This document shows positions 10,072-52,727 of a DNA stretch of 61,034 nt, one piece after another (the stretch's first letter is position 1; every line of letters begins with the position of its first letter). The position numbers and the translations under genes were made by a program. The notes below the pieces were generated by a model. It was not told where the DNA came from, did not search any database, and saw only the letters and a list, made by a program, of their open reading frames with translations. Source of the DNA: a virus; the IMG/VR virus record IMGVR_UViG_3300046642_000302, positions 1 through 61,034 of that record. One strand, given 5' to 3'.

Positions 10072-10090
10072 CTTTGGGTGGCGCGGTGAC

Positions 10091-11056: not shown

Positions 11057-11063
11057 GTAACGC

Positions 11064-11139: not shown

Positions 11140-11145
11140 GAAACG

Positions 11146-11222: not shown

Positions 11223-11225
11223 ATA

Positions 11226-11250
11226 GAGTGGTTATTGTAGCTAACCACTC
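11226..11250 (-). other. Perfect hairpin just 5' of the tRNA cluster
   Basis: The arms GAGTGGTTA and TAACCACTC (9 bases, loop of 7) end 3 bases before the tRNA-Met 5' end on the minus strand. There is no U-run, so termination is unlikely. It may help processing of the tRNA precursor from the long upstream mRNA. Confidence 0.6.
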
Positions 11251-11270
11251 CAGGTATTGCCATTACTTCG

Positions 11271-12912: not shown

Positions 12913-12939
12913 TGGGAAATGCTCCGTGCTTATTGGTTG

Positions 12940-14585: not shown

Positions 14586-15142
14586 TGCGCGCCCTCCTTC
14601 AAGGGCCACAACCCTTCCTCGGTCATGATTGCCATCAGCCGGGTCATTACCGGGTCATGTTCGGCCTCGTCGGTGACGGTAGTTTCTTCCAGCACCTCCA
14701 GCTCGGCAAGGCCTTGCTCGCTGATACGCTCAAGCACCTCTTGATTGCGCATCAAGTACCGGCCGAAGCGATAGCGCTCGCCATCCGTCACGTCGACGCC
14801 GGTGGCGGGGCGGGTATCAATCCGGCGCAAGTGGGCGGCGGCATTGTTCAGCAACTCGAACACATGATTATCGGCGCCGGGCTCGACGTCGTTGAACACT
14901 TCGGCCAGTGTCAGCAGGTCACGGACCAGATCGCTGTCGCTCGGCAGGTGCTCGGCGTTATCGCGCAGGCTGTCGAGCTGGTCGCGCCAGGTCAGGGTCG
15001 GAATTTCTTGGGCTTCCAATTTGCGCTTTTTGGCGAAGCCATCAATGCCGCTCAGGGGATTGATGATGTCGGACGTTCGCAGGTGCCCGGCGAAGTCAAA
15101 CAAGGCGCCGAGAATCACGGCCTCGGGGTTGGTGCTCTTCAT
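14582..15142 (-). CDS. Hypothetical protein, first sizeable gene of the small-protein operon
   Basis: A 186-residue helical acidic protein (VILGALFDFAGHLRT near the start). Its ATG is preceded by AGAGGCATCACC, the extended ribosome-binding sequence shared by many genes of this phage. It reads away from the divergent early genes at 15406, so it probably belongs to an early or middle transcript. No domain is recognised with confidence. Confidence 0.7.
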   Translation of the reverse strand: MKSTNPEAVILGALFDFAGHLRTSDIINPLSGIDGFAKKRKLEAQEIPTLTWRDQLDSLRDNAEHLPSDSDLVRDLLTLAEVFNDVEPGADNHVFELLNNAAAHLRRIDTRPATGVDVTDGERYRFGRYLMRNQEVLERISEQGLAELEVLEETTVTDEAEHDPVMTRLMAIMTEEGLWPLKEGAQ

Positions 15143-15234
15143 GGTGATGCCTCTTGTGGGGTGCTGCGGGGTTTGATTAGGCCGTGTTCAATCAGGATGG
15201 CCCACTGCATTGCAATCCAATCTTCAAAGCTCAT
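15139..15234 (-). CDS. Possible leader peptide gene (31 residues)
   Basis: A short frame (MSFEDWIAMQWAILIEHG...) starts at 15234 and ends with an ATGA overlap on the next gene. Its final codons contain that gene's AGAGGCATC ribosome-binding site. The upstream Shine-Dalgarno is poor. It may be a small real protein or a leader that couples translation. Confidence 0.35.
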   Translation of the reverse strand: MSFEDWIAMQWAILIEHGLIKPRSTPQEASP

Positions 15235-15405
15235 TCATCGACTCAAAATTAACGCAAAACGAACCTTACCATAATTCGTCACCACTTCAACAGCTTTCGT
15301 CTCGACAACCGTTTATTTCGTGTTTTTTTCATTCCCTCTATTGTGCGCGCGGGAAAAGTTATCTACAGTTTCCACACATAAACGCACTACAGAGGAATCA
15401 CCCGC
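15235..15405. promoter_or_regulatory. Divergent early promoter region
   Basis: An AT-richer 170-bp stretch between divergent gene blocks. For the minus strand, TTGAAG at about 15292 and TAAGGT, 16 bases apart, form a sigma70-like pair. For the plus strand TTCGTG and TATTGT (about 15320-15347) are 16 bases apart. Both are moderate matches. A single DnaA-box-like TTATCTACA lies at about 15359 (one mismatch from consensus). Confidence 0.45.
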
Positions 15406-15609
15406 ATGAGCGCCGCCCAAAAGAAAGAATCCCGCCGCACCCTGGAAGCCCAAGGCATTGACTTCAGCGCCGACTTCCACGCCCTGCCCGGCGCCCAAGT
15501 GCAACTGCTGATCGACCGCGCCAAGCATGACAAGTACAAGGCGCCGGCCGATGCCAACGGCTCGACCGCTCGCTACTTCTTCTATCGCCTGGCACGCGGC
15601 AACAAGTAA
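15406..15609 (+). CDS. Hypothetical early protein
   Basis: A 67-residue basic protein (MSAAQKKESRRTLEAQGIDF...) with AGAGGAATCACC before its ATG. It is the first gene of the plus-strand early run. Residues 50-64 (GSTARYFFYRLARG) resemble conserved small proteins of Pseudomonas phages. Function is unknown; early host-takeover proteins are commonly of this size. Confidence 0.7.
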   Translation: MSAAQKKESRRTLEAQGIDFSADFHALPGAQVQLLIDRAKHDKYKAPADANGSTARYFFYRLARGNK

Positions 15610-15680
15610 GCCGACCGAATCACCACAAGCCGCTTAATTGCGGCTTTGCCAGTACCAACACTCCGACAGGACGCCCGCCC

Positions 15681-16037
15681 ATGAATATCAGCCAGTTTAT
15701 TGAATCCACCGAAGCCATGCGCCAGGCGCACATCCTCGGCACGCTCAGCGCGGCCAATGTGCAGCATGGGATTGAAGCGCTGGTACTGCTGTTCTGTGCG
15801 CAACCGGACGCGGCCAAGGTCGACACCATCGACTCTAATCCGCGCCTGATCGTCAAACCGGACGCCGGCCTGACGGTTCAACAAATTGCGTGGGCCGAAC
15901 AGCATGATTGGTTTCGCTGGCCACACGTCAGCGCCGGCGTCAGCGGCGTCGTGGTGATCGAGCGCCAGTCGGGCGGCCACAGCGAACGCAAATGGTTTGG
16001 CGACTTCCAGGCGCTGCGCGCTTGGGCCGGCTACTAA
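15681..16037 (+). CDS. Hypothetical early protein
   Basis: A 118-residue mixed alpha/beta protein. A helix MNISQFIESTEAMRQAHIL is followed by IEALVLLFCAQP, and a C-terminal segment has several Trp residues (WAEQHDWFRWPHV). No signal peptide. It lies 71 bases after the previous gene. No family recognised. Confidence 0.65.
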   Translation: MNISQFIESTEAMRQAHILGTLSAANVQHGIEALVLLFCAQPDAAKVDTIDSNPRLIVKPDAGLTVQQIAWAEQHDWFRWPHVSAGVSGVVVIERQSGGHSERKWFGDFQALRAWAGY

Positions 16038-16069
16038 TTCACCCAACCCCACCACCGAGGCATCTGCAC

Positions 16070-16408
16070 ATGCACACCACCGAATACACGATCATCCGCG
16101 CCAATGGCGACGAACAGGTTCACACCGTTGAACTGCCGGCCGAACCGGATTACTTCCAGCTCAAGGCGGTCATTCAGCCGATTATCGGTGAGCACAACGA
16201 CTTCGAGCGCGTCGCCGTGCTGCACGATGGCCAGGCCACGGATCTGTTCGTTGATGAAAATGGCCTGCTCAAGGGCTTGCCACGCAACGAGCGGGCCACC
16301 GCGATCTACCGTCACAACTGGCTGACCCAACACCCCGGCACCGACCCGGAAACCCTGCCGTGGATTGTCGGCGTCGCCGTGCTGTTTTCCCGTCGCGTGT
16401 GGTTTTAA
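16070..16408 (+). CDS. DUF3846-like protein
   Basis: A 112-residue protein with the DUF3846 layout: a first strand (TTEYTIIRANGD), then ..AVIQPIIG......VAVLHDG...DLFVDENGLLKGLPRN..AT..Y, ending in an IVGVAVLF strand. This family is common in phage early regions. ATG 16070 follows CCGAGGCATCTGCAC. Its function is unknown. Confidence 0.75.
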   Translation: MHTTEYTIIRANGDEQVHTVELPAEPDYFQLKAVIQPIIGEHNDFERVAVLHDGQATDLFVDENGLLKGLPRNERATAIYRHNWLTQHPGTDPETLPWIVGVAVLFSRRVWF

Positions 16409-37276: not shown

Positions 37277-37501
37277 ATGCTGTCCGACTACGTAGGCTTG
37301 GCTGTTATGTGTACCGTTATCGGCGCCTTCATTTACACGCAGGTGCCGCCGCACTGGCAAAGCCTTGGCGGTTTTCTGCTGATCGTCTTCGGCTGGCTGC
37401 CGGCCGGACTTCTGGCCGTGTGCCTACTCAAAGCGCCGGAATTGTTTGTCCCGGCGCTGATCGTCGCCGTCCTCGTTATTGCCCCCCGCCAGAACGCCTA
37501 G
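37277..37501 (+). CDS. Lone small membrane protein on the opposite strand
   Basis: A 74-residue protein from ATG 37277 (GGAG 9 bases upstream). Three hydrophobic stretches cover most of it: YVGLAVMCTVIGAFIY (4-19), LGGFLLIVFGWLPAGLLAVCLL (30-51) and LFVPALIVAVLVIAP (55-69). It is the only plus-strand gene in the late block and its end overlaps the polyvalent gene by 26 bases. This pattern fits a moron expressed from its own promoter in a lysogen, such as a superinfection-exclusion protein. Function is not shown. Confidence 0.6.
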   Translation: MLSDYVGLAVMCTVIGAFIYTQVPPHWQSLGGFLLIVFGWLPAGLLAVCLLKAPELFVPALIVAVLVIAPRQNA

Positions 37502-40500
37502 CCATCGCCCGCTGTTCCAGCGCCTTGCCCACTTGCTCGGTCATCAGGTTACGCATCGAGCGTAGGCTGTCGAGCTTCTGGCGCTTGGTGTCGCTGTCGG
37601 TGTCCGTGCTCATTTGCACCTGTTTCATTTCCGCATTGATCTGGCCCAAGTCCTTGGCCACACGGGTCAAGGATTTGCGCATGCCCAGTTCATCCGGCTT
37701 GTCTTTTTGCAGTTGCTGCGCCTGCTGTTCCTGGCCGTACTGCGACAGGTGTTGCAGGTCGGCATAGGCCTGATCGGACGCCTTGAGTGCGGTATAGAAG
37801 TCGGTACCGTAGCGGTTGTAGTTGTCCTCCTTGGTCAAGTCCTTGTAGAAGCGTTTGATCGGCTGGTATTCATCCCAGCTACGCGCCGGCAACTGCTCGC
37901 CCTGCGCGCCACGCCAGTAGGTGTCGGCCATGGCCATGGCTGAGGAACCGACCGCACCCAAATAACCCTGGATCAGATAATCGATCTGGATCGGCGACAG
38001 CGCCGAGTTGCCCACGCCAATGGTGTCCAGCGCGCGCTCGATGCCACGGCTCGACGCTTCCGCCAGGCGCGTACTGTCAGGGCGCACACGCAGGCTGGGG
38101 CTGAGTTTCTGCATCGACTGGTCTTCAATCGGGCGCCCGGTGAACATGCTTTGATTCGACCATAGTTCGGCAATCGGCTTGAACGCTTGCGGCGTTGGGT
38201 TCATCGCAAAGGTGTCGCTGAGCATGTGCAGCATACGGCTGGCGAACTTATCACCGCCCACCGTCGGGTCGACAAACTGCTCGGCCAGGCGTTCGCCCAT
38301 GGTGGCAATCGAGCCGACTTCGAACGGCTTCGGAATGAAAAACATGCTATTGCCAATCTTGATCGACCAGTAAGTGTCGCGCTGCCAGTCTTCCAGCTTG
38401 CGATAGTCCTCGTCATCCTTGTTGCGCAGGTACAGCAGCGTACTGAAGGCGGTCAGCGCGCCGACCACGGTAGCGAAGCGGGCGAAGGCCTGCTTGTCCG
38501 AGGTGGTGCCCTTGCCGAACAGGGTTTTCAGTGCTGGCTTGCCGCCCGAGCGGTAGAGCTTGTCCAAGCCCTGAAGCCGTGCGTTGAGGAACGGCACCAC
38601 ATCGGTGAAGAACTTGATAATCCCGGCGTCGCCGTGGGCGCTGAAGTCCATCAGGTCGCGCGCTTCAAACGCGGCCTTGAGCTTGCCCTTGCCCTGGTTG
38701 TGCTCCCAAATCCCGGCGCGGTTCATGTTCTCCGCGAAGTCGGTCACTTCATGGTACTTGTGCCAGGCTTTCATCAGCGTGTTCGGGATCAGCATCGGGT
38801 CTTTGAGCACTTGCGCGGTACGCATGCTGCCGTTGAGCGAGGCCTTGAAGTCGGCCGCACCGTGGCCGTAGACCTGGCCGAAGTGGAACGCCCCGCCGCT
38901 GGCCATCATCCGCGCTCGCGCCCGTTTATTGCCGTAGGTCAATGCGCCCTTGAAGGCGGTCTTCAATGGAATGGCGCTGGTCGGCGAGGTGGCCATGGCC
39001 GCCAGCGAATCGCGGATGGCGTTGGCCACCACAAATTGCGGGGTGATGGTGGTCATGTTGGTGAAGAAGCGCTTGAAGCTGCGCATGACCTTGCGCGAGG
39101 TGGTGTTGACACCGGGGTCCGAGAGCGCCGACACCGCCTTGAAGGTCAGCGGGTCACTGACGTTGTACCACTGCTTAATCCCGTTCTCCATGACGAAGGT
39201 GCTGGCCTTCTTGTCCTTGTGCGCCTCGGTGGTCTTGTCGGCAATGCCCAGTTGCTCGGCGTTGGCCATGGCCTGCGTGGCCGCCTGATTCTTCAGGCTG
39301 GCTTGAATCAGGTGGTGGAAATTGAGCAGGGTGTTTTCCAGCAAGTCGTTGAGGTGCTGCTTGCCGCCCTTGAGCTTTTTGTAGGCTTGTTGGCGCGACA
39401 GGCCACCGCCGCCCGAGGACGGACCGCCAAGGTTCTCGTCGTCAATCACCCGGTAAAACGGCACGTAAAACTCATCGCTCCAGGTCGCGCGCTGTTCCGG
39501 GGTGATGATCCCGGATTGTTCGGCGATGCCCAGCACGTCATCACGGTGCTGCTGAAACTCTTTCCACACTTGCTGATAGAGCATGCTGCGGCTCTTGCCG
39601 TTCTCCAGCTTGCCGCCGCTGAACTTGATCCCGGCCTCGATTTCTGCCGGGGTGAACAGGTTTTCCCGGCCTTCGCCGAGCAGGCGCTTGGAGCGGTTAG
39701 CGGCGATCCAACCCATGAACCTGGTCATTTCCGCCACGCTGCCGAGCTTCTTCAGGGTGTCGCCCAAGCCTTGGGTATTGTCGTGCAGGTCAATCACCTT
39801 TTCCGTGGGGTCGAGGTAGATCCGACCATGGTGCAGCAAGGCGTCCACCGCGCCGCCTGCGGCCTGGCTCATGCGCGCCAGCACCCACGAACTGGACGCA
39901 ATCGAGCCTTCCAGGGTGTCGGCGCCGTACAGCGCGTGGTCGTTGCGCATCAGTGGCGCGTACCGGTCGACGGCGGCCTGGCGGAAACGCAGACCGAGGT
40001 TGTCAGTCAGTTGGCGCCAGCGATCCGTCATCCGTTGTGGCAGGGTTTCCGGGCCGATCTTGTTGCTGAAGCTGGTGGCGTCGGCATCGGCCTTGATGTC
40101 GTCGAACACGTCGGAGAGCTTGACGCTGAACATGGTCCCGGCCTTGCCGAACAGTTCACCGCGTTTGTCCAGAGCCATCGATACCAAGGCATCTTTGGCC
40201 ATGGCGCGCAGCTGCGCCGGGGTGACCTGGCCCAGTTGTTTGCCGTAGCGGCTGAACAGCCAGTGCTTGACCGTGCCCACCAGATCGTCCACCCACTTGC
40301 GGAAGGCAGCCGGCAGTTGCGCATGCTCTTCAATGGCGTAGGCGCCAAACTCTTCGGGCGTCATGCCGTCGGCCACCGCGCCGGCGTCCTGTGCCTGCTG
40401 CACGCGCTCACGGGCGCGGTCGAACACGTCGCGAGCCTTGCCGGTGGATTGCTCGGCCTGGCGGTGCAAACCGTCCAGGCGCTTCATCAGCTCGCCCCAG

Positions 40501-43500
40501 CGCTGCGAGCCGACCAGCTGCTCGCCGCCACTGTGAAACATTTCATGCAGCAACACGCCATTGGCGTTTTCGGGGGTCAGGTTGGCCGCCACCAGGTGCA
40601 CGGTGCCATCCGGAGTGGTCAGCGCTTGCACGCCGCGCACGTTGTGGCCTTCTGGCAGCGATTGCACGTTGCCGTGAATGACGATGTGCCCGGCGTCGAT
40701 CAGCTTGTTGACCACCGGACCAAACGGGCCTTGGGTAATGGCGTCGCGCACTTCTTGGTGCGAAGCGGGCTCAGCGACCGGACTGGACACCGACAAGCGA
40801 TTGCCGTCGCCGAGGTGCTTGGCGCGGATAAACCAGCCGCCATTTTTTGGGAAGGTGTACGGGTCGATTTCCTGCGCTTCGGCCTTGGTCAGGTCGGAGC
40901 GCACCAGACCGGTGATGGTCTTGCCTTTGCCGGTGACGTGCTCGATCAGCTCAGGCTTGGGTTCCGGCTTGCTGCTCGGCATGCGATCCGGCACGTCCAG
41001 GTGCTCGATGCGGTCGAACAGTTCGCCGGTCGACTCGGCATTGCTCAGGTTGATGGTGCGCGCATGGATGCCTTGCGCGTCGTCCGGGTTGCTGTGCTTC
41101 TCCAGCACCACCACTTGCGTGTTAACCGCGGTGCCGGCGCGCTCGAAGGTCGACGGCGGTAGGTCGAAAGTCGCCACGCGGTGCAGGCTCTGCGCCTCGT
41201 CGCTGTCGAGAAAGGTCGCCAGGCGCTTGTCGGTCAAACCACCGCGCGGAATCAATGCGACGATCCGCCCGCCTTCACGCAGGTGCTGGGCCGCCTTGGC
41301 GACGTGCTCGATGGCGGTCTTGCCGCCGTTGCCGAACGGCGGGTTCATCACCACGGCGTCGTACTTGTTGGTCCGGTGCAACGACTCGAAGGTGTCGTTG
41401 ATGATCCGCGCGTTGCCGTTGGCCAGGGCCGCCCGCTGCGACAGGTCATAACTCGGCTCGACCATGGTGACGTGGCTTTGCTGTGGGAAGAACCGCGCGA
41501 TCGCGCCATGCCCGGCCGACGGTTCCAGTACATGATCGCCGGGTTGGATGTTGGCCCACTCGGCCATCTTCAGGCCGAGCGGTTCCGGGGTGGCAAAATA
41601 GTCGGTGCCTTCGCGCAGGTCGCGGCGCTTGCTGTTCTTCTGCTGGGCGAAGTAATAGGCCTTGGCCTTCTGGAACGGGGTCAGTGCCGCCTGCGCCGCC
41701 AGTTCGCGGTCGAGGGCTTTGCCGCCCTTGCCGTCCTCGGCGCTCGGCGCCTGATCATCGGCGTTGTTGTAGGCATCGATAAACGCCTGTTTCAATCCGC
41801 GCGCGTCGGTGCCCAGCGCCAAGTTTTCAGCGGTCGAGGCGCGCTCGGCGATCTTGCTGGCAAAGGCGCTGGCCTCCCAGGCGGTGCCGGTGGTCAGGTA
41901 GCGAAACGCCGCGTCGCTGGCTTGGCCGGTGCGGTAGGTGCGGCCTTCGATCTGGATCGCCGCCACCGGCTTGCCTGGCATGCCGAGGTTGATCAGCGCG
42001 CGCATGTGCTGGCCGGTGGTGTCGTGCAAACTCACGCCTTCGCGGCCGGCGTCCGACTGCAACACGATCAGGTCTTTGCCGCTGGTGTCGTCGTTGAAGG
42101 TGTCGGCATTCAGCCGGCGCGTCGCCTTGGGCACCGTGCCGTTGAAGAACAGCGCGTCCGGGAACGCCGCCGACAGGGTATCAATCGGCGAGAACAGGCC
42201 TTTAAGGTCCATCTTCTTGAAGATGTCCGGGCGCGCGGCAAAGGCTTCGCGGGCCAGGGCTTTGACGTCGGCCTCGTTGATGCTGGCCATTCCGGCCGCG
42301 AACGGATCGAAGCCACCGCCTTTGTTGTAGTCGTGGAACACCACCACCTTGCGCCCGAGCGCCATGTGTTCCTTGATCATCGGCACCACGGCACGGGCCT
42401 TGATCGATTCGAGCAGGTACATGCGCTTCTGGTAGTCGAAGGTCGCCATCACCGCGTCATACACTTTGCGGTACTTGCCGTCGTCATGTTCGCGCAGGTA
42501 GGCCAGGCCTTGGTCGATCTTCTGCCCCACGGCATCGTCGACCATCACAAACTTGCGGTCGTAGTCGTGCGGCACTTCCAGGCGCCGACCCGACAGCGCG
42601 CCGACCTCCTTCAGGTGCTGGTTGAAATTCTGCTCCATCAGTTCGGAGTCAACCCCGGTTTCCGGCGCGGTCAACTTGTTGTAACGCATGCGGTAGCCGA
42701 AGTGCTGCATGAAAAACTTCTCACGCGCATCACCGCTGTTGTAGCTCGATCCGGCCATTTCAGCCTTGTTGCTGAAGCGCTCGGTCGGGTGCGTGTAATC
42801 GAACAGGTAGCCCTCGGCGTAGTCCACGCTTTTGACGTAGGCGAACGGCGTGGCCGAGAGGAACAGGGTTTTCGGCAGGTCTTGCTGGCTGGCCCAGCGC
42901 GCTTGCCAGGCCTTCTTGGCTGGCTTCTCGATGGCATCCCACGCGGCTTTTTGTTCGGCTTCGGCTTCGGCCAGCTGGTCTTTCTGTGTTTGGGTCACGC
43001 CAGAATCCGGCGCGGCGGCGTCACGGCTGGCGTTCATCGCCGCCTTGTAGCTGCCCCACTCCTTGGGGTTGCGCTCACGTACCCACTGGTAAAAGCCGTC
43101 CGGGTGCCCGGTCAAGCCTTGCAGCTTCGACAGCGCGGCGGTGCCTTCGCCCTTCTCGTTGCTCGACAGGTAATGCGCCTCATCGGCCACGACCTGATCC
43201 CAGTCACGCAGGGCCAGGCTGTCGTTGGCGCCGAAGTTGGCATAGGTGGTGATGACCTGGCCTTCTTTGCCGTTGTCGGTGGTGCCGGTCAGTTGTTTGA
43301 GGTTAACGCCCAGCATCTTGGCAAACTTCACCCAGTCCGCGGCGATCTTGTCGCTCGGCACCACCACCAGGGCGTTGGGCTTGCCGTCGTTGATCGAACG
43401 CACGATCACGCCCATGCCGCTGGCGGTCTTACCGGTGCCGGTGCCATTGGTCAAAAGCATGCCGTTGCCCACGGCATAACGCTGCTCAGCCTTCAGCACG

Positions 43501-46500
43501 TCGTCGCGCTGAGGCTCAAGCAGGAGGGGTAGGGCTTTATCGATGTTGGCTTTGTCGCCGCGAACGGTCGGGGTGTCAGCGGCCTGTTTCTGCGCCGCTA
43601 GACGTTGACTGAACTCGCTGGCATCAGAGGCAGGAGCAGTTTCAACAATGTGGCCTGCTCGCTCTTGCTCAACGGGTTTTCCTGTGACGCTATCGCCACC
43701 GCTTCCGGCGCGTTCAACACCTCCGGGAGTGCCGAGCGTAGGTCGGAATGTCCCGTTTGGTTGATGTAGTTGCTGATCGCCTGATTCTCGGCCAGCAGCG
43801 GCGCCATCAGTTGGTAGGCGTTGATCACGCTGTCCGTGTACCCGTGCTGCTCCAGCGTCTGCGCCTGGCTCGCCAGTGCCGCGTCCAGCTGCGGCTGGCT
43901 CATCGTGAACAGCTGTTGCATGTCCGGGTTTTGCAGCGGTTGCGTCTGTGCGATTTGGTTCCACACGCTGGCCGGGACTTGCTGCATTTACTGCACTCCC
44001 TTGTTGCGTTGCTTCACCACGCGCATCAGGTGCTGGTCGCTGTCCGTCTGCCCGACGTGCGCCAGGACTTTGGTCATCAGCGCTTGGGCTTCCGAAGAGG
44101 CCTTGTTGCTGGTTGGCTTGGGCGTCTTGGCGATCAAGTTTGTCATGCGTGCCTCGAAGTAAGTCGGCGCCGGTCACTTCCGGGTCGCCGAACAGGTTGG
44201 TGCCCGGCTGAGTGGCGCGGGCCAGCTGAGTATAGGTCAGAAGAGCGTCCGCTACTGTAGCTCGGCTACGCGCACGGGCCAAGCTGGCGCCGCGATAGAA
44301 CACGCCGACCCAGTCCTTGGTCGCTTGATCCAGTTCGCCGGAGAAAATATCGTTCTGGTTGACCAGTTCATACACCGACTTGCCCTGTGCGCGGGCCTGG
44401 CGCACCAGATTCACCGCTTCGATCAGGTTCGGCGTGATGTCGGCGCCCTGAGAGATTTGCCCGTCGCGTGCTTCCTGGCGCATCTGCGCCCATGGGCCAG
44501 CGGCATCGAGCAGCGCGCCGCCAATCGACTTAATGTCGCTGTCGGTGCTCTCGAACAGGTCATTGATCAGGCTCGGTTCATCGTAGGCGGCGGACAACAA
44601 CGCGGCCTCGATCCGACGGCGGCCGTCCTGCGACAGCATCCCGTCGCCATCCATCAGGCTGCCGCGATCGCTCTTGCTGGCCACGTCACCGACAAAGGCA
44701 CGGACGAACTCGCGGTTGGCCGAGCCCGCGACGTCGCCGCCGTGGTACAGGTGCAGGAGGTCGCCCAGCTGCTTGCCGTCGGCGACCGCGCGCTCGGTGG
44801 AACTCAGGGCCAGGGTGGTGCGTTCGTTGGCTTCGCTGGTGTAGGCCTTCAGCTCGTCATTGTTCATTGGCGTGACGCGCTCGCGCACCAGCACCGGGGC
44901 TTTCATCCCGCTGACGTCATGCCCTTGCGACTCCAGCCAGGCGCGGTACTTGCTCGCGCCGTCGGTGTTCTTGGCGTAGGCCTGTTGAATGCCCAGCGTG
45001 CGGCCGTTGCCGCTTTCGACCACACCCTCGGGCGAGACGATCGGCGCGCCGTCGGTGGCACTGGCGCTGTCGCCGAGCAGGCGCGGGTTGAGGTTCGAGG
45101 CGATGTCGTTGATCTGGCTCAGCGACGCCGAACGCGAACGGTCACGCGGCTGCAATTCTTTCGGGTAGGCCGGGTTAACCGCGCCGTCGGCACTGTTGGA
45201 GGTGATCAGGCTGTCGGCTTCGACCACCTTGCTGCGCACGTCGAACTCGCGGCCGCTCGGGGTGGTCACGGTTTGAACCTTGGCAGTTTTTGCCATAGTT
45301 GCCGGCTCGGTTTGAACTGGGGCACTTTTTGCCTCAGTTGCCGGGGCGTCGCTCAGCTTGGCCAGTTCGGCGCGCACGGTGTCGGCGTTGTCCATGCCGT
45401 CGACCGAGTGGCCGGCATCTTCCATCATGTCGCGCGCGCCGTTAAACCAGCTGCGCAGGTACGGGCGGACTTTCTCCAGCGGCTGGCCCAAGTCTTCGGC
45501 CATGGTCTTGGCGAAGACGGCAAACTGACGCACGCCGGCCTCGATGTGGAACACCGCCAGCTCGGTGCCGAGCGCCAGAATTTCCGGATCGATGCCGCTG
45601 TTCAGTTGCGAGCCGTTGAGCTTGGCCTTGAGTTTGGCGCGCAGCTCGGCCGCGCGGTCCTGGCTCACCAACTTGTTGCTGGCACCATACTCGGCGGCCT
45701 TGGCCAGTTCGGCGGCAGTTTCTTCCGGTGGTGCCGGCTCTTCCATCTTGGCCGGTTCCGGGACGGGAGCTGCTTTTGTCTCGGTCACCGATGGCTTCTC
45801 GACCTTGGTGTAAGTCACGCCTTTGTGCTCGGCCACGTTAAAGTCGGCGTGCGACAAGTGGGTGCCGCTGTTGCTGCCGCTGCGCTTGACGTAGACATTC
45901 CCTTTGCTGTCGATGCTGTCGACGGTGTACGTCTCGCCACCGGTGATGTAACCGACGTCAGCGGACGGGATGAACTGCTCACCTTCCTTGATCCCACCCA
46001 TGCGCTCGCGCGCGGCCTGACGCTGGGCTTCGGCGCGAGCCTTGGCCTTCTGTTGCGGGGTTTGCGGTTTCGATGCCGGTTCAGCGGCTGTTGATGCAGG
46101 TTTGACCGCCGGCGTTGCAGTTTTCGGGGTTTCCGATGCAGGTTTGGCCGTTTCTGTTGCAGCGCCCGAGGCTTTCCACAGGTCCGTCAGGTTGAGCGCG
46201 TGCAAGCCATCGACCAGCATCTGGCCGTTTTTCACCAGCGGCGCACCCATCTGGAACGTGCGCCCTTCACGAACACCGGGCTTCAAGCCGTTGACGTTCT
46301 TCACGCCTTCACTGCGGCGCCATTTCACGTAGTCCACGGCGGCCCGCTGCGCTTCATACGGGTCGAGGCGGCGCAGGCCTTCCATTAGCGTGTTTTCATG
46401 GCGCTTGTGGTAGTTCGCCAGGTCACGCGCGGCGACTTCAGCCTCACGCTTGGCTTCCGCATCGCCTTTGTTCGCCCTGGACTTAGCGTCCTTCTCCTGC

Positions 46501-49500
46501 GCATCGCGCTGCAAGCGGGTGTAACCGTCGCGCACCTTGTCCTCGTAGGTTGGCTCAGCGGCTGGGGTTGCCGGCTTGGTCTGCTCCTTGAGTGCGGCGC
46601 GCTTAGCCTCGACCTTCTCGACCTCGCTGGCGTAGTTGCGGCTGGCAATGTCGCCAATCGGTTCGCCGCGCGCGGTCTTCGCCTCATTTTGCAGGCGGAA
46701 ACTCTCCAGAAAATGCTCATCGGATTGCAGGTGTTCGGCGGGCGACATTGGGTCGTTGCCGCGCATGCGCATGCCGTTTTTGTTGTGCGTGATGGCATGC
46801 CCACGGCCGTAGGCGTCTTTGGCCTGCTGTTCCAGGTCGAGGGCGCGCTGCTCGTCCGGCTTTACAGATTCGACCTTTGGCTTAACATCCGGCGCGGTTT
46901 CCTTTACATCCGGCGCCGACGTTGCACCATTAGCTGTCTCGGCACTGGGGAACTCGCGCACGGTGTCGAGCAGTTGCTTGATCGGCGCGTCTAGGCGAAT
47001 AACCTTGACCGGCTGGTCGCCGTCGACTTTGGCCAGCCATTGATGGTGGCCATCGAGGATATGGTTGTCGCGAGACACCAGAATCGAGCGCTCGCCGCCT
47101 TCATAGCCCAAGGCTTGCTTGACCTTGGCCGGGCTGAACTCTTCCTGTGTGGGCTTCAGGCTGCTGGCCGGGACTTCTTCCTGGGTGTGGGCGATGTCGC
47201 GCGCATTGAGGAACTGCGTCATCGCGCCACGGTGTTCGGCCTTGATCTGCGGCATGTCGGCGCGCGGCACGTTCAAGCTGCCCGAGGTGTCGGCGAAGCG
47301 CGTCCATTGCGGATCGATCTTGTCGCCGGTCAGGTCGGCCACGGCGGTTGGTGCTGGGGCTGGCGCGACTGGCGCAGCCGTCGGTTGCACAGCGGTCGGC
47401 TTGGCGGCTTGGGTGCCGGCGTTGTCGGTGGCGAACTTGATCGCCTTGCCGATGGCGGCGCGCTCTTTCAGCAGCGCCTTATCGCTCGGGTCAGCCTTGA
47501 TCGCAGTGGCGATCGCCTTCAGCTCGGCGCGCAGGCTCGGCTCGTCCATCGCCATGTAATCGGGCGCGGCCTTCTTCACCACGTCGGTCAGGGTTGGCAC
47601 TTGCTCGGTCAGGGTCGGAATGTCGACGCCAGGCTTTACCACGTCGGTCAAGGTCGGGATTTTGCCCACTTTACCGGTGGTTGGGGCCGACGGGGCGGCC
47701 GGTTCGGTTGCCGGGGTGGCATGGCCGCGATCCAGCTGCACGCCATCGGCTTGGGTGAAGTCGTAGGCATTGCCGTCGTCGGCCAGCACACGGGCAGTCC
47801 ACTTACCCTGGCCATGGTCTTGGTAATCTTGCAGGGTGCCGGCCATTTCGCCGTCGGAGCTGCGCACGGTGACGGCTTCACCGGCCGATTCATGGGTGAC
47901 GGTCGGTGCTGGCGCGACGTATTGCTGCGCGGCACGGGTCAACGGGCCAGCGGTAGGCGCGGCAACGGGGGCAGGCGCTGCGGGCTGGGCCTGCGCCGGT
48001 TGCGCCGGTTGCGCCATATCAGGGGTTGGCGCACTCGGCGCAGGCGCCGCTTGTGGGTCCATGGCGCCCAAGGTTGGCTCGACCCGTGCTTGCGGCTGGG
48101 CTTGCGGGGCGTGGTGGTTGCGGCCGAACGCGCCGGCTGTGGCGCCACCGGTCACGCCGCCGACAGCCAGGCCTTGCACCATGTTCTCGCCGACGCCTTC
48201 GCTCAGCGATTGCGTCGGGTCGATGTTGCGTTGGGCGATGTTCTGCCCCAGCTGCTCGCCGCCGCTCTGTGCGGTTTCGGTCAAGCCCTCGTTGCCGAAG
48301 CCTTTCATGATGCGCGGGATCAGCGAGCCACCTTCACTGATGATCTTGCCGAGGAACTGGCCGCCGACATGGTTCACCGTGGCGTCGACGATCCCGGCGT
48401 AATGGCCAGCCTCTTCGGCCGCGTCGGCAATGACCTTGGCCCGTGCGGTTTCCGGGTCGTACCCTTGTTTCAGCAAGGCTTGATAGGCCGGGGACTTGGC
48501 CATCTGCGCGTTGGTGGTCTGCTCGCCGCTGGCCTGCGATTGGGTGGCCTGCTGCGCGTAACCAATGCTGCCTTCCGAACCGGCACCGACGCGCGAGGCG
48601 ATCTTGATTGCGGCCTGGGTGCCAATGGCTTGTGCCGCTTCAGCACTGGCGCCCGCTTCCAGGGCGGCGGACTCAGCGCGCACCGAGGCACCACGGGTCA
48701 GGAACGCGGTCACCGCCATGGCCACCGTCGACGGCAGCGAGTTCACCGCATCGCCCAGCACGCGCACAGGCGAGGTCAACGCCGACTTGCTCATGTCGGT
48801 GGTGGCGTACTTCAGATCGCTGTACTTGGCCTTATCTTCCGGGCTCAGGTCGGCCATGGTCGCACCGGCTTTCTTGGTCATCGCCTGGGCGAAGCGGTTG
48901 AGGATCATCCCAGCGCTGTGATCCAAGTAGTCGCGGTACTTGTCCGGCTGATCCTTGTAGATGGTGGCGATTTCGGACGGGGTGAAGGTCCACGGGTTGA
49001 CCGCATCGAGCAACTTCGCGCCCGCGCCGGCCATGTTGTAGACGCCGGATTTACCCTGCTGCTTGAGGTATTGAACTGCGCCGACGTCACCGTAATACGG
49101 TTCATCCGGGCTCGGTGCCATGCCGGCCGCTTGGCGCAGCTGGTTGGCCACGGTCAGTGGCGACGGCTGATCCTGACGCGCAGCGTTGGTCTTGTCCTGA
49201 TTGTCCAGGGTCAACGGCGACGGCGCGGTCTGCTGCGTGGCGTTGATGGCGTTGGCCAAGGTGTTCTTGCCGCTGAAGAGGTCGGCGCGCTCTTGGTTGT
49301 GCTGGGCAATGTCGGCCGGATCAATCACCTTGTAGCGGCCGGGTTCCTTGGCGTCCATTTCTGCTTGGATCGCCGCCAGATCAGGGCCAGCCGGCGCGGC
49401 AGTCTGCGGCTTGTTAGCCATCAGCTGGTCGCCGATCATGCCGGCCTTCGCCATGACTTCCTGGCCATAGGCGGCGGTCTTGGCGCCCCACTGCTCGCGG

Positions 49501-49952
49501 TTATCGCCACCGAAGTGCGCCTTGATCGCGTCCTCCATGCTGTAACCCTTGTCCAAGCGCTCACGCAGCTGCTGGGCGGCGCCGGCAATGGCCTGTTCCG
49601 GGTTAAATGGGTTGATGCCCAAAGCCTTGGCATTGCTGTCGAGGTTTTGCAGCATGCCTTTGGCTTGGCCGTACTGGGTCTTGACACCAATCGCATTGGG
49701 GTTGTAGTTCGATTCCTGCTGCGCCAAGGCCGACACCACGTTGAGCGGCACGCCGTATTGGGCGGAATACTTCTCGAACAACGGCTGTAGATCAGGCGGC
49801 GGCAACAGGCCGTTGCTCAGGCTGGCGGCCGCACTCGGCACCGTGCTGCGCGATGGCAGGACGTTAAAATCGGGAAGGGGTGGCGCCGTCGGCGCGGTGG
49901 CAGTAGTACCGGTCGCAGGAAGGGACGACTTGAGAAAAAGATTTTCTGCCAC
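37476..49952 (-). CDS. Giant polyvalent virion protein (DarB-like domains, 4,158 residues)
   Basis: A single reading frame of 12.5 kb, a fifth of the genome. Domains in order are as follows. Lytic transglycosylase, residues about 55-165 (Glu80 in AQQESNYNP, GQAKGMLQN). Helical pore-like region, about 330-620. ParB-like core, DGHHQW at 967-972. ddrB-type ParB region, about 1560-1900 (NPRLLGDS, ESGNGRT). Superfamily-II helicase, Walker A GTGTGKT at 2170-2176 and DEAH at 2257-2260, with helicase C (IQIEGRTYRTGQ). Adenine methyltransferase, NPPF at 2870-2873 after LEPSAGHG. Metallopeptidase, HEMFH at 3136-3140. A long LPD38-like C-terminus, about 3480-4158. Polyvalent proteins of this type are packaged and injected, helping DNA entry and antirestriction. 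Residues about 1936-2118 overlap two genes in another frame. Confidence 0.92.
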   Translation of the reverse strand: MAENLFLKSSLPATGTTATAPTAPPLPDFNVLPSRSTVPSAAASLSNGLLPPPDLQPLFEKYSAQYGVPLNVVSALAQQESNYNPNAIGVKTQYGQAKGMLQNLDSNAKALGINPFNPEQAIAGAAQQLRERLDKGYSMEDAIKAHFGGDNREQWGAKTAAYGQEVMAKAGMIGDQLMANKPQTAAPAGPDLAAIQAEMDAKEPGRYKVIDPADIAQHNQERADLFSGKNTLANAINATQQTAPSPLTLDNQDKTNAARQDQPSPLTVANQLRQAAGMAPSPDEPYYGDVGAVQYLKQQGKSGVYNMAGAGAKLLDAVNPWTFTPSEIATIYKDQPDKYRDYLDHSAGMILNRFAQAMTKKAGATMADLSPEDKAKYSDLKYATTDMSKSALTSPVRVLGDAVNSLPSTVAMAVTAFLTRGASVRAESAALEAGASAEAAQAIGTQAAIKIASRVGAGSEGSIGYAQQATQSQASGEQTTNAQMAKSPAYQALLKQGYDPETARAKVIADAAEEAGHYAGIVDATVNHVGGQFLGKIISEGGSLIPRIMKGFGNEGLTETAQSGGEQLGQNIAQRNIDPTQSLSEGVGENMVQGLAVGGVTGGATAGAFGRNHHAPQAQPQARVEPTLGAMDPQAAPAPSAPTPDMAQPAQPAQAQPAAPAPVAAPTAGPLTRAAQQYVAPAPTVTHESAGEAVTVRSSDGEMAGTLQDYQDHGQGKWTARVLADDGNAYDFTQADGVQLDRGHATPATEPAAPSAPTTGKVGKIPTLTDVVKPGVDIPTLTEQVPTLTDVVKKAAPDYMAMDEPSLRAELKAIATAIKADPSDKALLKERAAIGKAIKFATDNAGTQAAKPTAVQPTAAPVAPAPAPTAVADLTGDKIDPQWTRFADTSGSLNVPRADMPQIKAEHRGAMTQFLNARDIAHTQEEVPASSLKPTQEEFSPAKVKQALGYEGGERSILVSRDNHILDGHHQWLAKVDGDQPVKVIRLDAPIKQLLDTVREFPSAETANGATSAPDVKETAPDVKPKVESVKPDEQRALDLEQQAKDAYGRGHAITHNKNGMRMRGNDPMSPAEHLQSDEHFLESFRLQNEAKTARGEPIGDIASRNYASEVEKVEAKRAALKEQTKPATPAAEPTYEDKVRDGYTRLQRDAQEKDAKSRANKGDAEAKREAEVAARDLANYHKRHENTLMEGLRRLDPYEAQRAAVDYVKWRRSEGVKNVNGLKPGVREGRTFQMGAPLVKNGQMLVDGLHALNLTDLWKASGAATETAKPASETPKTATPAVKPASTAAEPASKPQTPQQKAKARAEAQRQAARERMGGIKEGEQFIPSADVGYITGGETYTVDSIDSKGNVYVKRSGSNSGTHLSHADFNVAEHKGVTYTKVEKPSVTETKAAPVPEPAKMEEPAPPEETAAELAKAAEYGASNKLVSQDRAAELRAKLKAKLNGSQLNSGIDPEILALGTELAVFHIEAGVRQFAVFAKTMAEDLGQPLEKVRPYLRSWFNGARDMMEDAGHSVDGMDNADTVRAELAKLSDAPATEAKSAPVQTEPATMAKTAKVQTVTTPSGREFDVRSKVVEADSLITSNSADGAVNPAYPKELQPRDRSRSASLSQINDIASNLNPRLLGDSASATDGAPIVSPEGVVESGNGRTLGIQQAYAKNTDGASKYRAWLESQGHDVSGMKAPVLVRERVTPMNNDELKAYTSEANERTTLALSSTERAVADGKQLGDLLHLYHGGDVAGSANREFVRAFVGDVASKSDRGSLMDGDGMLSQDGRRRIEAALLSAAYDEPSLINDLFESTDSDIKSIGGALLDAAGPWAQMRQEARDGQISQGADITPNLIEAVNLVRQARAQGKSVYELVNQNDIFSGELDQATKDWVGVFYRGASLARARSRATVADALLTYTQLARATQPGTNLFGDPEVTGADLLRGTHDKLDRQDAQANQQQGLFGSPSADDQSPGARRADGQRPAPDARGEATQQGSAVNAASPGQRVEPNRTDATAAKPGHATAVHDEPAAAGRGTGEPGADAGAARVHGQRDQRLPTDGAAAGRESGDQQLHQPNGTFRPTLGTPGGVERAGSGGDSVTGKPVEQERAGHIVETAPASDASEFSQRLAAQKQAADTPTVRGDKANIDKALPLLLEPQRDDVLKAEQRYAVGNGMLLTNGTGTGKTASGMGVIVRSINDGKPNALVVVPSDKIAADWVKFAKMLGVNLKQLTGTTDNGKEGQVITTYANFGANDSLALRDWDQVVADEAHYLSSNEKGEGTAALSKLQGLTGHPDGFYQWVRERNPKEWGSYKAAMNASRDAAAPDSGVTQTQKDQLAEAEAEQKAAWDAIEKPAKKAWQARWASQQDLPKTLFLSATPFAYVKSVDYAEGYLFDYTHPTERFSNKAEMAGSSYNSGDAREKFFMQHFGYRMRYNKLTAPETGVDSELMEQNFNQHLKEVGALSGRRLEVPHDYDRKFVMVDDAVGQKIDQGLAYLREHDDGKYRKVYDAVMATFDYQKRMYLLESIKARAVVPMIKEHMALGRKVVVFHDYNKGGGFDPFAAGMASINEADVKALAREAFAARPDIFKKMDLKGLFSPIDTLSAAFPDALFFNGTVPKATRRLNADTFNDDTSGKDLIVLQSDAGREGVSLHDTTGQHMRALINLGMPGKPVAAIQIEGRTYRTGQASDAAFRYLTTGTAWEASAFASKIAERASTAENLALGTDARGLKQAFIDAYNNADDQAPSAEDGKGGKALDRELAAQAALTPFQKAKAYYFAQQKNSKRRDLREGTDYFATPEPLGLKMAEWANIQPGDHVLEPSAGHGAIARFFPQQSHVTMVEPSYDLSQRAALANGNARIINDTFESLHRTNKYDAVVMNPPFGNGGKTAIEHVAKAAQHLREGGRIVALIPRGGLTDKRLATFLDSDEAQSLHRVATFDLPPSTFERAGTAVNTQVVVLEKHSNPDDAQGIHARTINLSNAESTGELFDRIEHLDVPDRMPSSKPEPKPELIEHVTGKGKTITGLVRSDLTKAEAQEIDPYTFPKNGGWFIRAKHLGDGNRLSVSSPVAEPASHQEVRDAITQGPFGPVVNKLIDAGHIVIHGNVQSLPEGHNVRGVQALTTPDGTVHLVAANLTPENANGVLLHEMFHSGGEQLVGSQRWGELMKRLDGLHRQAEQSTGKARDVFDRARERVQQAQDAGAVADGMTPEEFGAYAIEEHAQLPAAFRKWVDDLVGTVKHWLFSRYGKQLGQVTPAQLRAMAKDALVSMALDKRGELFGKAGTMFSVKLSDVFDDIKADADATSFSNKIGPETLPQRMTDRWRQLTDNLGLRFRQAAVDRYAPLMRNDHALYGADTLEGSIASSSWVLARMSQAAGGAVDALLHHGRIYLDPTEKVIDLHDNTQGLGDTLKKLGSVAEMTRFMGWIAANRSKRLLGEGRENLFTPAEIEAGIKFSGGKLENGKSRSMLYQQVWKEFQQHRDDVLGIAEQSGIITPEQRATWSDEFYVPFYRVIDDENLGGPSSGGGGLSRQQAYKKLKGGKQHLNDLLENTLLNFHHLIQASLKNQAATQAMANAEQLGIADKTTEAHKDKKASTFVMENGIKQWYNVSDPLTFKAVSALSDPGVNTTSRKVMRSFKRFFTNMTTITPQFVVANAIRDSLAAMATSPTSAIPLKTAFKGALTYGNKRARARMMASGGAFHFGQVYGHGAADFKASLNGSMRTAQVLKDPMLIPNTLMKAWHKYHEVTDFAENMNRAGIWEHNQGKGKLKAAFEARDLMDFSAHGDAGIIKFFTDVVPFLNARLQGLDKLYRSGGKPALKTLFGKGTTSDKQAFARFATVVGALTAFSTLLYLRNKDDEDYRKLEDWQRDTYWSIKIGNSMFFIPKPFEVGSIATMGERLAEQFVDPTVGGDKFASRMLHMLSDTFAMNPTPQAFKPIAELWSNQSMFTGRPIEDQSMQKLSPSLRVRPDSTRLAEASSRGIERALDTIGVGNSALSPIQIDYLIQGYLGAVGSSAMAMADTYWRGAQGEQLPARSWDEYQPIKRFYKDLTKEDNYNRYGTDFYTALKASDQAYADLQHLSQYGQEQQAQQLQKDKPDELGMRKSLTRVAKDLGQINAEMKQVQMSTDTDSDTKRQKLDSLRSMRNLMTEQVGKALEQRAMARRSGGGQ
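43598..43987 (-). CDS. Overprinted gene inside the polyvalent frame (129 residues)
   Basis: An ATG at 43987 with GGGAG 8 bases upstream opens a 129-residue frame shifted relative to the giant gene. The product is natural-looking: Gln/Leu-rich amphipathic helices, e.g. LDAALASQAQTLEQHGYTD and AYQLMAPLLAENQAI, ending ATLLKLLLPLM. By hand count 105 of its 129 codons end in G or C, as in genuine genes here. The overlapping giant-gene codons end in G or C only 49 times and encode Gly/Pro/Arg/Ala-rich linker. This suggests that the embedded frame is under selection. Function unknown; a small virion or chaperone-like protein is possible. Confidence 0.65.
   Translation of the reverse strand: MQQVPASVWNQIAQTQPLQNPDMQQLFTMSQPQLDAALASQAQTLEQHGYTDSVINAYQLMAPLLAENQAISNYINQTGHSDLRSALPEVLNAPEAVAIASQENPLSKSEQATLLKLLLPLMPASSVNV
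43988..44146 (-). CDS. Overprinted short gene inside the polyvalent frame (52 residues)
   Basis: A 52-residue frame (MTNLIAKTPKPTSNKASSEAQ...) starts at 44146 with GAGGC 5 bases upstream, the ribosome-binding core used by many genes of this phage. It ends with TAA directly joined to the next overprinted start (TAAATG). It is in the same frame as the 129-residue gene. The product is basic with a helix (ALMTKVLAHVG) and Q/R-rich end. Translation as a coupled pair is plausible. Confidence 0.5.
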   Translation of the reverse strand: MTNLIAKTPKPTSNKASSEAQALMTKVLAHVGQTDSDQHLMRVVKQRNKGVQ

Positions 49953-50032: not shown

Positions 50033-51361
50033 TTACTGGTAGGGCACCATTTGCCCGGTTTTGGTGTCGTAGATCATCGGCACATTACTGACCGGGACCG
50101 CCGAGGCTTGCGGCTGGCCCTGCGGCGACCAGCCTTGCGCGGGTGGCCACTGCTGCGGGGCGCCAGCGGTTTGCCCTCCCGGCAGGCCGCCCGACATCGG
50201 GTTAGTACCGGCATTGATCGTATTGACGTCCTGATCGATCAGCGCTGCCTGCTTCTGCGGCGACATTCCCTTGAAGCTGAAATCGCTGTTCATCCGCGCC
50301 TGAAACAGCATGCGCCGTACTTCCTGCGGGTCGGCCGGCTTCTTGTACTGGCCGATGCCGAGGATTTGCGGCAGCGCAGCCTTGATAAAGCCCTCGTCGT
50401 AGCCGTTGGCCTTCAGGGTGGCGATCTTGCTGTTCAGCGTGGCGCCGGCGTTGGCCTGATCCAGCTGCTTGCCGGTGGCCTGTAGGTTCAAGGCGTTGCC
50501 GGCCTTCTGGTCTTCCAACTTGCTATGACTAGCGGTTTGCAGGGTCACTTTGTTGGTGTCGCGGACCATTTCGTTAGAAGTCTTATGGTCTTCCAGCTGG
50601 GTTTTGTACTGCGCGCCCTGCGCCGCCGTGTTCTGCGCCATGTGCAGCGCAAAGCCCTTTTGCGGATCGAGGGCGGCAATCCCCATGTTCAGCATGTCCT
50701 GCGTGCCGTTGACCTTCTGCGTGAACTTCTCGCCGCTGGCCTTGTTGGTCAGGTTCAGGTTGATGCCGGTGGTATTGCCGTCCTTGTCCTTGATCAGATC
50801 GTAGCCGTCGGCGTGAATCCCATCCTCGTAATAGCCGGGGGTGTTGTAGGTCCTGACCATGTTGTCGGCATAGCCTTTGAAGTCGCCCATTTGCCCGGCA
50901 ATGGTGGCTTTGCTCAGGTGGCCCAGCGCGGTGCGCGTGCTCTTGTCCTGCATCCACTGGTCCCACTGATCGGCCGCGGCCTGATTACCTTGGGCAAGAT
51001 AGGTTTCTTTGACCTTGGGCGCCACATTGGTCAGGTACAGCTCATCGAGGCCCGGCGCGTTCTTCTTCGCGGCGGCGGCCTGCTCGTCGGCGTTGGCGTA
51101 GGTGTTACCGTGCGTGTCGGTGTAGGTTGGTACGGTCATGCTGTTGTCCGCATTGGGCGCACTGCCCGTCTGCGAGTTGGCGCTGATGTCATCGCTGCGC
51201 GCCTGTTGCGCATCGGCCAGGCCTTTTTGCATGACGTTCTTCACGTCCTGCTGGTTGGTATAGGCGACGTTTTTCTGGTAGGCGTCAATCATCTGGTTGC
51301 CGACCGAAATACCGTCGCTGATGCCGCGCAGCAAACCGCCTGCGGCGTAGGGATTACCCAT
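50033..51361 (-). CDS. Internal virion / injection protein
   Basis: A 442-residue protein, Ala/Gln/Asn-rich with long helices. The N-terminus (GGLLRGISDGISVGNQMIDAYQKN) is typical of phage internal or tail-lumen proteins, and the C-terminus is Pro/Gln-rich (PQQWPPAQGWSPQGQPQ). It lies between the methyltransferase fusion (8-base overlap) and the polyvalent gene. By analogy with P22 and N4, it would be ejected with the DNA. No catalytic motif is seen. Confidence 0.75.
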   Translation of the reverse strand: MGNPYAAGGLLRGISDGISVGNQMIDAYQKNVAYTNQQDVKNVMQKGLADAQQARSDDISANSQTGSAPNADNSMTVPTYTDTHGNTYANADEQAAAAKKNAPGLDELYLTNVAPKVKETYLAQGNQAAADQWDQWMQDKSTRTALGHLSKATIAGQMGDFKGYADNMVRTYNTPGYYEDGIHADGYDLIKDKDGNTTGINLNLTNKASGEKFTQKVNGTQDMLNMGIAALDPQKGFALHMAQNTAAQGAQYKTQLEDHKTSNEMVRDTNKVTLQTASHSKLEDQKAGNALNLQATGKQLDQANAGATLNSKIATLKANGYDEGFIKAALPQILGIGQYKKPADPQEVRRMLFQARMNSDFSFKGMSPQKQAALIDQDVNTINAGTNPMSGGLPGGQTAGAPQQWPPAQGWSPQGQPQASAVPVSNVPMIYDTKTGQMVPYQ

Positions 51362-52727
51362 GGTTCACCTCCAGATTAAAGAGTGCGATGTGCGGCATGA
51401 CCGCCTCGCGGATCACGTCGAGTTTACCCTGATAGACCTGATAGGCCTCGGGGTGCTGGGCCTTGAGCCAGGTAGCACGGCCTTCCGACCAGTAGGCCGA
51501 ACAGGTCAGGCAGTCCGGCGAGGCGGCCAGGTGCTGGTAATACTGGGGGATAAAGGCGTTGTCGCGCAGGTACTCGAATACCGCGTCATCACTCCAATGC
51601 TCCAGCGGAAACAGCAGCTCTATGCCGTTGTCCAGGGCTCCGGAACGCAGCGGCGACTTCATCCGGTCGCTGCTCTTCTGCCCGCGAATGATCAGGGTCA
51701 CGCCATCGTCCAGCATGCGCTGGTGCATCGGCGCCATCAGCGAGTGATAGCAGCAGTTGAAACGATCCTGCAAGGCCACGCCGCCGCCATAGGCTGCGCG
51801 CCCAAAGGCGGTGGCCGTGGTCGGCAGCAGGTCCGACGGCAGGCCGTGGTCGGCAATCTGCTCGTTGACGCGACCGGCAATCTCGACAAAGTGCGGCACC
51901 AGGGCGCGCACCTGCTCGACCACCGCCTGCACTTCCGGCACCGGGTCGCCGGTATTGGTCCAGTACACGGTCATTTGCGGCCAGTAGCGTTCGAGGACAA
52001 ACAGCGCAGCCAATGAATCCTTGCCGCCGCTGAATTGAAAGGCGATGCGCTGGTGCCGGTCGAGCGTCGCCGCCACCTGCTCATGCAGGGTTTGGCTGCG
52101 GAACTGGGCGAGGTAGACCATGGCACCGGGCAAGGCCTGCTCGAAGTCGGCGAACTCACCGGCAAAGTGGCTCATGTCGCCATGGGTCAGAATGGTTTTG
52201 GTCGGTGCGAAGCCGTGACGCTCGATCACTTCGCCCCAGGTGTCGGCCGGCATGAAGGTCGCGTACAACTCGGGCAGCTCGCGGTATTCGGTAATCGCCA
52301 GATCGCAGATGAACAACTGACCGCCATCCTTGAGCACGCGTCGCGCCTCGCTCAGTGCCTGATTGATCGGCATCTGGCACAGCGCGCTGTTGAACATCAC
52401 CACGTCGGCGCTGGCGTCCGGCAAGCCGCTGCGGGTGAAGTCGGCGCAGTGAATGGCAAAGGCCTCACCGTCGGGCGCATGCTTCAGCTGGTACTCGCTG
52501 GTGTTGACCAGATCAAAGGTCAGGTCCGGACGCTCGGCGTGCATCAGCCGCGCGACCTCACCAATCCCGCACCCGGCGTCGACGATGTGCGCGCCGGGCG
52601 CCGGGTTGATCAGTTTCAGCAGGTACGCGACGTGCGCGGCCTGGCTCTCGCCGATAAGTGCGGTCTGCATCACGCGCAGGCCTTGGGCCAGGGATAAGTC
52701 GGTGGCGCGGTTGATTGCCTCGATCAA
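51354..52727 (-). CDS. SAM methyltransferase fused to a PAPS-reductase-like domain
   Basis: A 457-residue fusion. Residues 1-200 are a class I methyltransferase: VDAGCGIG (49-56) is the SAM-binding loop, followed by ADVVMFNSALCQMP and EARRVLKDGGQLFI. Residues about 215-457 are a PAPS reductase/DndC-like adenine-nucleotide hydrolase: PP-loop QFSGGKDSLAAL (SGGKDS near 232-237), IIRGQKSSDRMKSPLRSG, a CC pair near 326 and CLTC near 406, possible Fe-S or zinc ligands. It is embedded among internal virion genes and coupled by an 8-base overlap. Roles could include DNA or RNA sulfur/methyl modification; the substrate is unknown. Confidence 0.85.
   Translation of the reverse strand: MIEAINRATDLSLAQGLRVMQTALIGESQAAHVAYLLKLINPAPGAHIVDAGCGIGEVARLMHAERPDLTFDLVNTSEYQLKHAPDGEAFAIHCADFTRSGLPDASADVVMFNSALCQMPINQALSEARRVLKDGGQLFICDLAITEYRELPELYATFMPADTWGEVIERHGFAPTKTILTHGDMSHFAGEFADFEQALPGAMVYLAQFRSQTLHEQVAATLDRHQRIAFQFSGGKDSLAALFVLERYWPQMTVYWTNTGDPVPEVQAVVEQVRALVPHFVEIAGRVNEQIADHGLPSDLLPTTATAFGRAAYGGGVALQDRFNCCYHSLMAPMHQRMLDDGVTLIIRGQKSSDRMKSPLRSGALDNGIELLFPLEHWSDDAVFEYLRDNAFIPQYYQHLAASPDCLTCSAYWSEGRATWLKAQHPEAYQVYQGKLDVIREAVMPHIALFNLEVNHG

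Follow-up and report, generated by a model that had tools for sequence, protein, structure and literature searches.

A conserved gene appears to be nested in the +1 frame of a giant phage polyvalent gene

The window, the whole stretch of DNA that was analyzed, is one virus record of 61,034 bases and carries a giant polyvalent gene. By Pfam, the gene encodes an SLT transglycosylase, a ddrB-ParB domain, an SF2 helicase, a methyltransferase and LPD38; several effector and DNA-processing domains are thereby joined in one very large chain, encoded near late genes, as in the polyvalent proteins with a DarB methylase-helicase dyad described by Iyer et al. in 2017 (PMC5512222). The text of that study, which we searched, mentions neither overlapping nor alternative-frame genes, and the nested genes described here lie outside its architecture. 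An earlier note on this DNA reported two back-to-back open reading frames of 52 and 129 codons, joined by TAAATG, in a shifted frame of the 4,158-codon gene. Both were confirmed and both lie in the +1 frame. The features of the region are as follows.

37476-49952, minus strand: giant polyvalent gene, 4,158 residues, without cysteine (Pfam hits and cysteine count).
44877-45257, minus strand: ddrB-like ParB domain of the giant, residues 1566-1692 (PF18763, E 3e-35).
44147-44156, minus strand: ribosome-binding region of the 52-codon frame, CGAGGCACGC, conserved in loci L009-L014.
43988-44146, minus strand: probable second nested gene, 52 residues, +1 frame, ATG at 44146, TAA abutting the start of the first nested gene.
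43988-44001, minus strand: ribosome-binding region of the 129-codon gene, AAGGGAG...TAA before the ATG, within the end of the 52-codon frame.
43598-43987, minus strand: first nested gene, 129 residues, about 14 kDa, predicted to be all-helical, +1 frame of the giant, ATG at 43987, TAG at 43600-43598.
43598-44146, minus strand: giant-frame linker over both nested genes, rich in Gly, Pro, Arg, Ala and Asp (composition, codon usage and absence of stops).
41739-43597, minus strand: helicase module of the giant, always accompanied by the 129-codon nested gene.

The Walker A motif of the helicase module lies about 53 codons past the stop of the 129-codon gene. The earlier description of the giant frame as a low-complexity Gly/Pro/Arg/Ala linker was borne out by its poor codon usage and by its composition, which is rich in Gly, Pro, Arg, Ala, Asp and Ser, as would come from a shifted frame. 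The ribosome-binding sites reported ahead of both frames are also present, GAGGC for the 52-codon frame and AAGGGAG for the 129-codon frame.

Searches by tblastn with the 129-residue protein matched Pseudomonas phage Skulduggery, Serratia phage Parlo, Klebsiella phage ZX1, Ruegeria phage 45A6 and two Vibrio phages at 34-63% identity. In each of these records, the giant is annotated and the nested gene is not. In Pseudomonas phage Itty13 (L137), the annotation at 4905-16163 consists of long antisense open reading frames over the polyvalent gene, and the giant itself is not annotated. All 44 distinct loci that were first recovered (30-94% identity) hold the 129-codon gene in the +1 frame within a continuous polyvalent open reading frame, and the other frame closes soon in most of these sequences. 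The start codon is ATG in all but one of them (L030, with a GTG apparently three codons upstream of the aligned position). An alignment of the named-phage relatives recovered 35 more viral-contig loci, 6 genome-contig loci and further plasmid records. Since the first 44 loci had been chosen by the nested protein, we ran the converse search with the helicase domain of the giant. The 129-codon gene was found in the +1 frame in 80 of the 80 best loci, kept from 251 confirmed candidates, and a divergent helicase alignment gave 79 of 79 further loci, from the best 80 of 256 confirmed candidates; the two sets share contigs. Altogether, the gene is kept in more than 100 related phages and is unannotated in every record checked, and we regard it as anciently conserved on the evidence of these sequences. 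The literature searched, which covered few subscription journals, held no description of the nested genes.

The earlier note proposed looking for the 129-residue protein as a separate gene between shorter polyvalent genes. Searches of phage, plasmid, viral and genome collections yielded no such stand-alone relative. Even in Acinetobacter elements with a split polyvalent protein, the gene is still nested, within the 5′ part of a helicase-methyltransferase gene that spans about 1,280 codons. Elements of this Acinetobacter type were seen at loci L051, L094-L096, L100, L110 and L124-L132.

The suggestion that the embedded product looks like a real helical protein agrees with its AlphaFold model, which is all-helical, with eight helices, and confident (pLDDT 91.2, pTM 0.85). 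Foldseek searches of this model against the PDB and viral models returned nothing with an E-value below 0.001, and Pfam, PHROGs, NCBIfam and PADLOC gave no believable match for either the 129- or the 52-residue protein. Weak matches to Vps54_N, vRNAP_dom_2, OrgB and designed TPR proteins fell below the cut-off and were set aside.

Many long spurious open reading frames occur in GC-rich genes, and resampling of single sequences leaves the nested frame open in up to 92% of cases; both points would fit a functionless frame that is open by chance. The synonymous-site comparison that the earlier note had proposed gave a clear result for the 129-codon gene. When close relatives are compared, synonymous differences in the giant frame amount to about 0.25 in the flanks, fall to 0.02-0.06 over the 129-codon gene and return to 0.23 directly after it. 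Over the whole 4,158-codon gene, the 10 lowest of 406 synonymous windows all lie in this overlap, with values of 0.02-0.07 against a gene median of 0.28, and the trough is the deepest in the giant gene. The same scan found no further trough of like kind that would mark more nested genes; at codons 1250-1299 of the giant, which are poorly aligned, divergence at position 1 is slightly above that at position 3. Divergence at the three giant codon positions is.213/.117/.082 in the overlap compared with.063/.049/.241 in the downstream flank, a switch that we read as the signature of a +1 frame. A dN/dS-like ratio computed from substitution classes over the 129-codon part is 0.42 for the nested frame and 1.4 for the giant frame; therefore, the nested protein is constrained, whereas the giant amino acids there are free.

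We also counted stops after synonymous-codon resampling over 59 clusters below 60% identity. Given the giant protein, 81 nested-frame stops were expected and none was observed. Relatives with stops in the embedded frame, which the earlier note listed among the observations that would speak against its reading, were sought in 117 distinct sequences, and no such stop was present. Conservation down to 30% identity, frame-specific substitutions, the synonymous trough and the predicted fold all argue against a chance frame; the trough, the substitution pattern and the stop counts refute it for the 129-codon gene, and we consider its probability negligible. The 129-codon frame is entirely enclosed by a gene that is read in another frame, has its own start and ribosome-binding site and is under purifying selection, as expected of a nested overlapping gene. 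We conclude that it is very probably a real gene and that this part of the giant is very probably dual coding.

Conversely, the giant open reading frame could be several separate genes, with the giant frame held open across the overlap by chance in GC-rich DNA. The low-complexity linker with its poor codon usage would fit this explanation, and some polyvalent proteins are split elsewhere. Nevertheless, given the nested protein, 279 giant-frame stops were expected over the 59 clusters if that frame were free, and none was observed. As the giant frame stays open despite a freely varying linker, both frames appear to be in use. Moreover, a giant-frame restart codon near the nested stop was found in only 9 of the 44 loci and was lacking in the other 35; most loci therefore require reading across the overlap to make the helicase. 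We accordingly rejected re-initiation as a source of a separate helicase, because restart codons are not conserved. A 4,515-residue Bcep22-like giant was detected in virions with 51 peptides (PMC9144972), which further opposes separate genes, although it does not by itself prove a chain that spans the junction. We consider separate genes exceedingly improbable.

The nested start is well supported. A Shine-Dalgarno match of at least 4 nt precedes 95% of nested starts compared with 22% of control +1-frame ATGs. A programmed +1 frameshift would instead link the giant's N-terminal part with the nested product in a short fusion form. Two observations would fit such a product: Sinorhizobium phage PBC5 has the N-terminal part in the frame of the domain of a second nested family (described below), and this domain is also matched by the end of the PHROG 938 profile. 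However, the start codon is conserved, being nearly always ATG with a Shine-Dalgarno site, and in the window a nested-frame stop directly precedes this ATG; in many loci, such a stop lies within a few codons. These features point to expression from a start of its own rather than by a change from the upstream frame. PBC5 is also a single record in which the frame is displaced 89 codons upstream, likely by an indel. We regard a programmed frameshift as highly improbable. In PBC5 (L140 / L171), the polyvalent N-terminal part is in the nested frame around position 9001, and the fusion in PHROG 938 may stem from this record. Under dual coding, one mRNA would be translated in both frames, with some ribosomes initiating at the nested Shine-Dalgarno site and others reading the giant frame through.

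The 52-codon frame is carried by L009-L014, L019-L021, L023 and L025, and L043 may have a diverged version of it. This clade keeps the ATG, a GAGG-type site and the stop/ATG junction. Both the 52-codon frame and the ddrB-ParB region are missing from L015 and L016, and the frame is probably tied to the ddrB-ParB insertion. The synonymous difference over it is 0.14 versus about 0.25, a moderate dip that indicates moderate constraint, and the giant and nested frames are about equally conserved there. Given the giant protein, the frame stays open in 97-100% of resamplings; its openness is explained by the giant protein and was rejected as evidence. The earlier claim of dual coding therefore holds strongly for the 129-codon gene and is less strongly supported for the 52-codon frame, where openness is uninformative and the dip is moderate. 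We consider the 52-codon frame to be probably a second nested gene.

Nested genes also occur in other polyvalent genes at the same junction. The giant of Klebsiella phage LASTA shares its N-terminal part with that of ZX1 up to this junction and then continues into a different module, an Eco57I-type methylase with an SNF2 helicase. The nested frames found in these other giants are as follows.

LASTA (L133), record positions 8698-9021: nested frame of family 2, 108 codons, +1, at the same junction and unrelated to the 129-residue protein.
Burkholderia phage JC1 (L294), 7304-7639, corresponding to 49303-49638 of OM283127, and L295-L298 from position 3001: Bcep22-like nested +1 frames of about 107-112 codons.

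Family 2 (about 105 codons) is conserved in phages of Erwinia, Pseudomonas, Vibrio, Agrobacterium, Ochrobactrum and Microcystis, always in the +1 frame apart from the displaced frame of PBC5. In 68 of 71 viral-contig loci (L144-L214), a longer open reading frame encloses it in the +1 frame, and the three exceptions are two contig ends and one shattered giant. In three Erwinia phages, the substitution pattern of family 2 shows the same signature as that of the 129-codon gene. Its AlphaFold model is of moderate quality (pLDDT 79, pTM 0.55), and a Foldseek search against the PDB gave no match with an E-value below 0.001. The Bcep22-like frame is kept in five Burkholderia phages behind a strong GAAGGAG Shine-Dalgarno site and matches family 2 weakly (E 0.0016); it may represent a third, possibly divergent, family. 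The presence of unrelated nested genes at one junction suggests a general design in which each module has its own nested partner.

These data bear on the order in which the two frames arose. The earlier hand count of codons ending in G or C, 105 of 129 in the nested frame against 49 in the giant frame, was right (0.81 versus 0.38). GC3 is 0.77 for the nested frame versus 0.71 for the rest of the gene, and 0.40 for the giant frame within the overlap. Codon usage in the nested frame is normal and matches the genome, whereas that of the giant frame in the overlap is unusual. Since codon usage and GC3 of the nested gene match the rest of the gene, while the giant frame and its linker composition do not, the nested gene is suggested to be the older. 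It is its codon usage, fold and constraint, and not phylogeny, that make the small gene look ancestral. We therefore favor, with reasonably good confidence, a nested frame that is ancestral and a giant linker that was overprinted across it: an effector gene on the upstream side and a methylase-helicase gene on the downstream side would have been fused across the small gene, overprinting a disordered linker. The earlier note offered true dual coding or an ancestral junction that later became fused, and the sequence supports both, with both frames maintained today.

The opposite polarity, in which the nested gene was born de novo inside an already old giant linker, would leave present-day dual coding unchanged. 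As no stand-alone nested relative was found in the collections searched, phylogeny cannot separate the two orders, and de novo genes, once old, can come to look normal, codon usage included (PMC8227390). Against this order stand the agreement of nested codon usage and GC3 with the genome, which the giant frame in the overlap lacks, the unconstrained giant amino acids over the 129-codon gene with their shifted-frame composition, and the confident globular fold of the 129-residue protein. Moreover, unrelated families at one junction would demand repeated births. We consider this order unlikely. An ancestral nested gene would resemble the model proposed for the hepatitis B virus polymerase spacer and surface gene, in which a short gene lay between two genes that were fused across it (PMC8227390) and an overprinted linker was left in the fusion protein. 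The virus and the proteins are unrelated to ours, and here, several unrelated small genes occupy one junction of related genomes.

Cysteine is strongly depleted in the nested proteins and their surroundings. It accounts for 11 of 11,774 residues in nested family 1, 0 of 6,423 in family 2 and 23 of 161,705 in the giants of 44 relatives, compared with 62 of 3,881 in small genes of the window and 3.6% in the +1 frame elsewhere. The window virion gene upstream of the giant (50033-51361, 442 residues) has no cysteine, and in six annotated phages the virion genes immediately upstream of the giant have almost none. A phosphoadenosine phosphosulfate reductase-like gene with 8 cysteines also lies among the virion genes just upstream of the giant (window 51354-52727), and JC1 has a similar gene at a similar place. 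Cysteine depletion, which is a signature of ejection proteins rather than their strict definition, is thus common to the nested proteins and the neighboring virion proteins. The virion polymerases of N4 lack cysteine, and ejection was given as the reason (PMC3915230). As in N4 virion RNA polymerase and ejection proteins (PMC3915230, PMC12633501), the giant described here is very large, free of cysteine and encoded beside other ejection proteins; unlike in N4, no polymerase is present and the small nested proteins are an addition. The giant gp69 of the Bcep22-like Burkholderia phage JC1 is virion-associated, with 51 unique peptides (PMC9144972). From the cysteine depletion, the N4 precedent and the JC1 giant in virions, we infer tentatively that the nested proteins may be packaged and ejected too.

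Neither a homologue of known function nor a fold match was found, and a partner role is suggested by linkage and cysteine depletion. We tentatively propose that the nested protein is an ejected partner of the methylase-helicase module, although we hold this to be somewhat doubtful. Such a small helical partner of the helicase-methyltransferase module would be packaged and ejected with the giant and would protect or process incoming DNA; the nested proteins may accordingly have an antirestriction role. A broader rule, to which we give an even chance, is that every methylase-helicase module or ParB module has a small +1 partner in the adjacent linker that is exchanged and ejected with it. At least two unrelated families of such partners, and probably three or four, would then have gone unnoticed among podovirus-like phages and prophages of Proteobacteria, as well as in at least one cyanobacterial phage.

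The closest precedent in phages is lambda Rz1, which is embedded in Rz and forms two-component spanins with it (PMC6139136). Like Rz1, the nested gene is wholly internal, begins at its own start in the +1 frame, is usually unannotated and is conserved across many phages. However, Rz1 is enclosed by a lysis gene, whereas the nested gene here is enclosed by a giant effector gene and overlaps a linker that separates catalytic modules. The nested products also lack the lipoprotein or spanin features; with no cysteine in the window protein and so few in its family, no lipobox is conserved.

Overall, evolutionary tests, rather than the length of open reading frames, revealed conserved genes hidden in annotated giant phage genes. 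One of these hidden genes has a predicted fold that matches nothing in the searches above and was missed in every annotated record checked. Giant polyvalent genes thus seem to specify additional proteins that go unannotated. The overprinting of a linker across a small gene offers a concrete route for the fusion of polyvalent proteins, and the nested genes point to proteins that are probably delivered into the cell alongside the antirestriction machinery.
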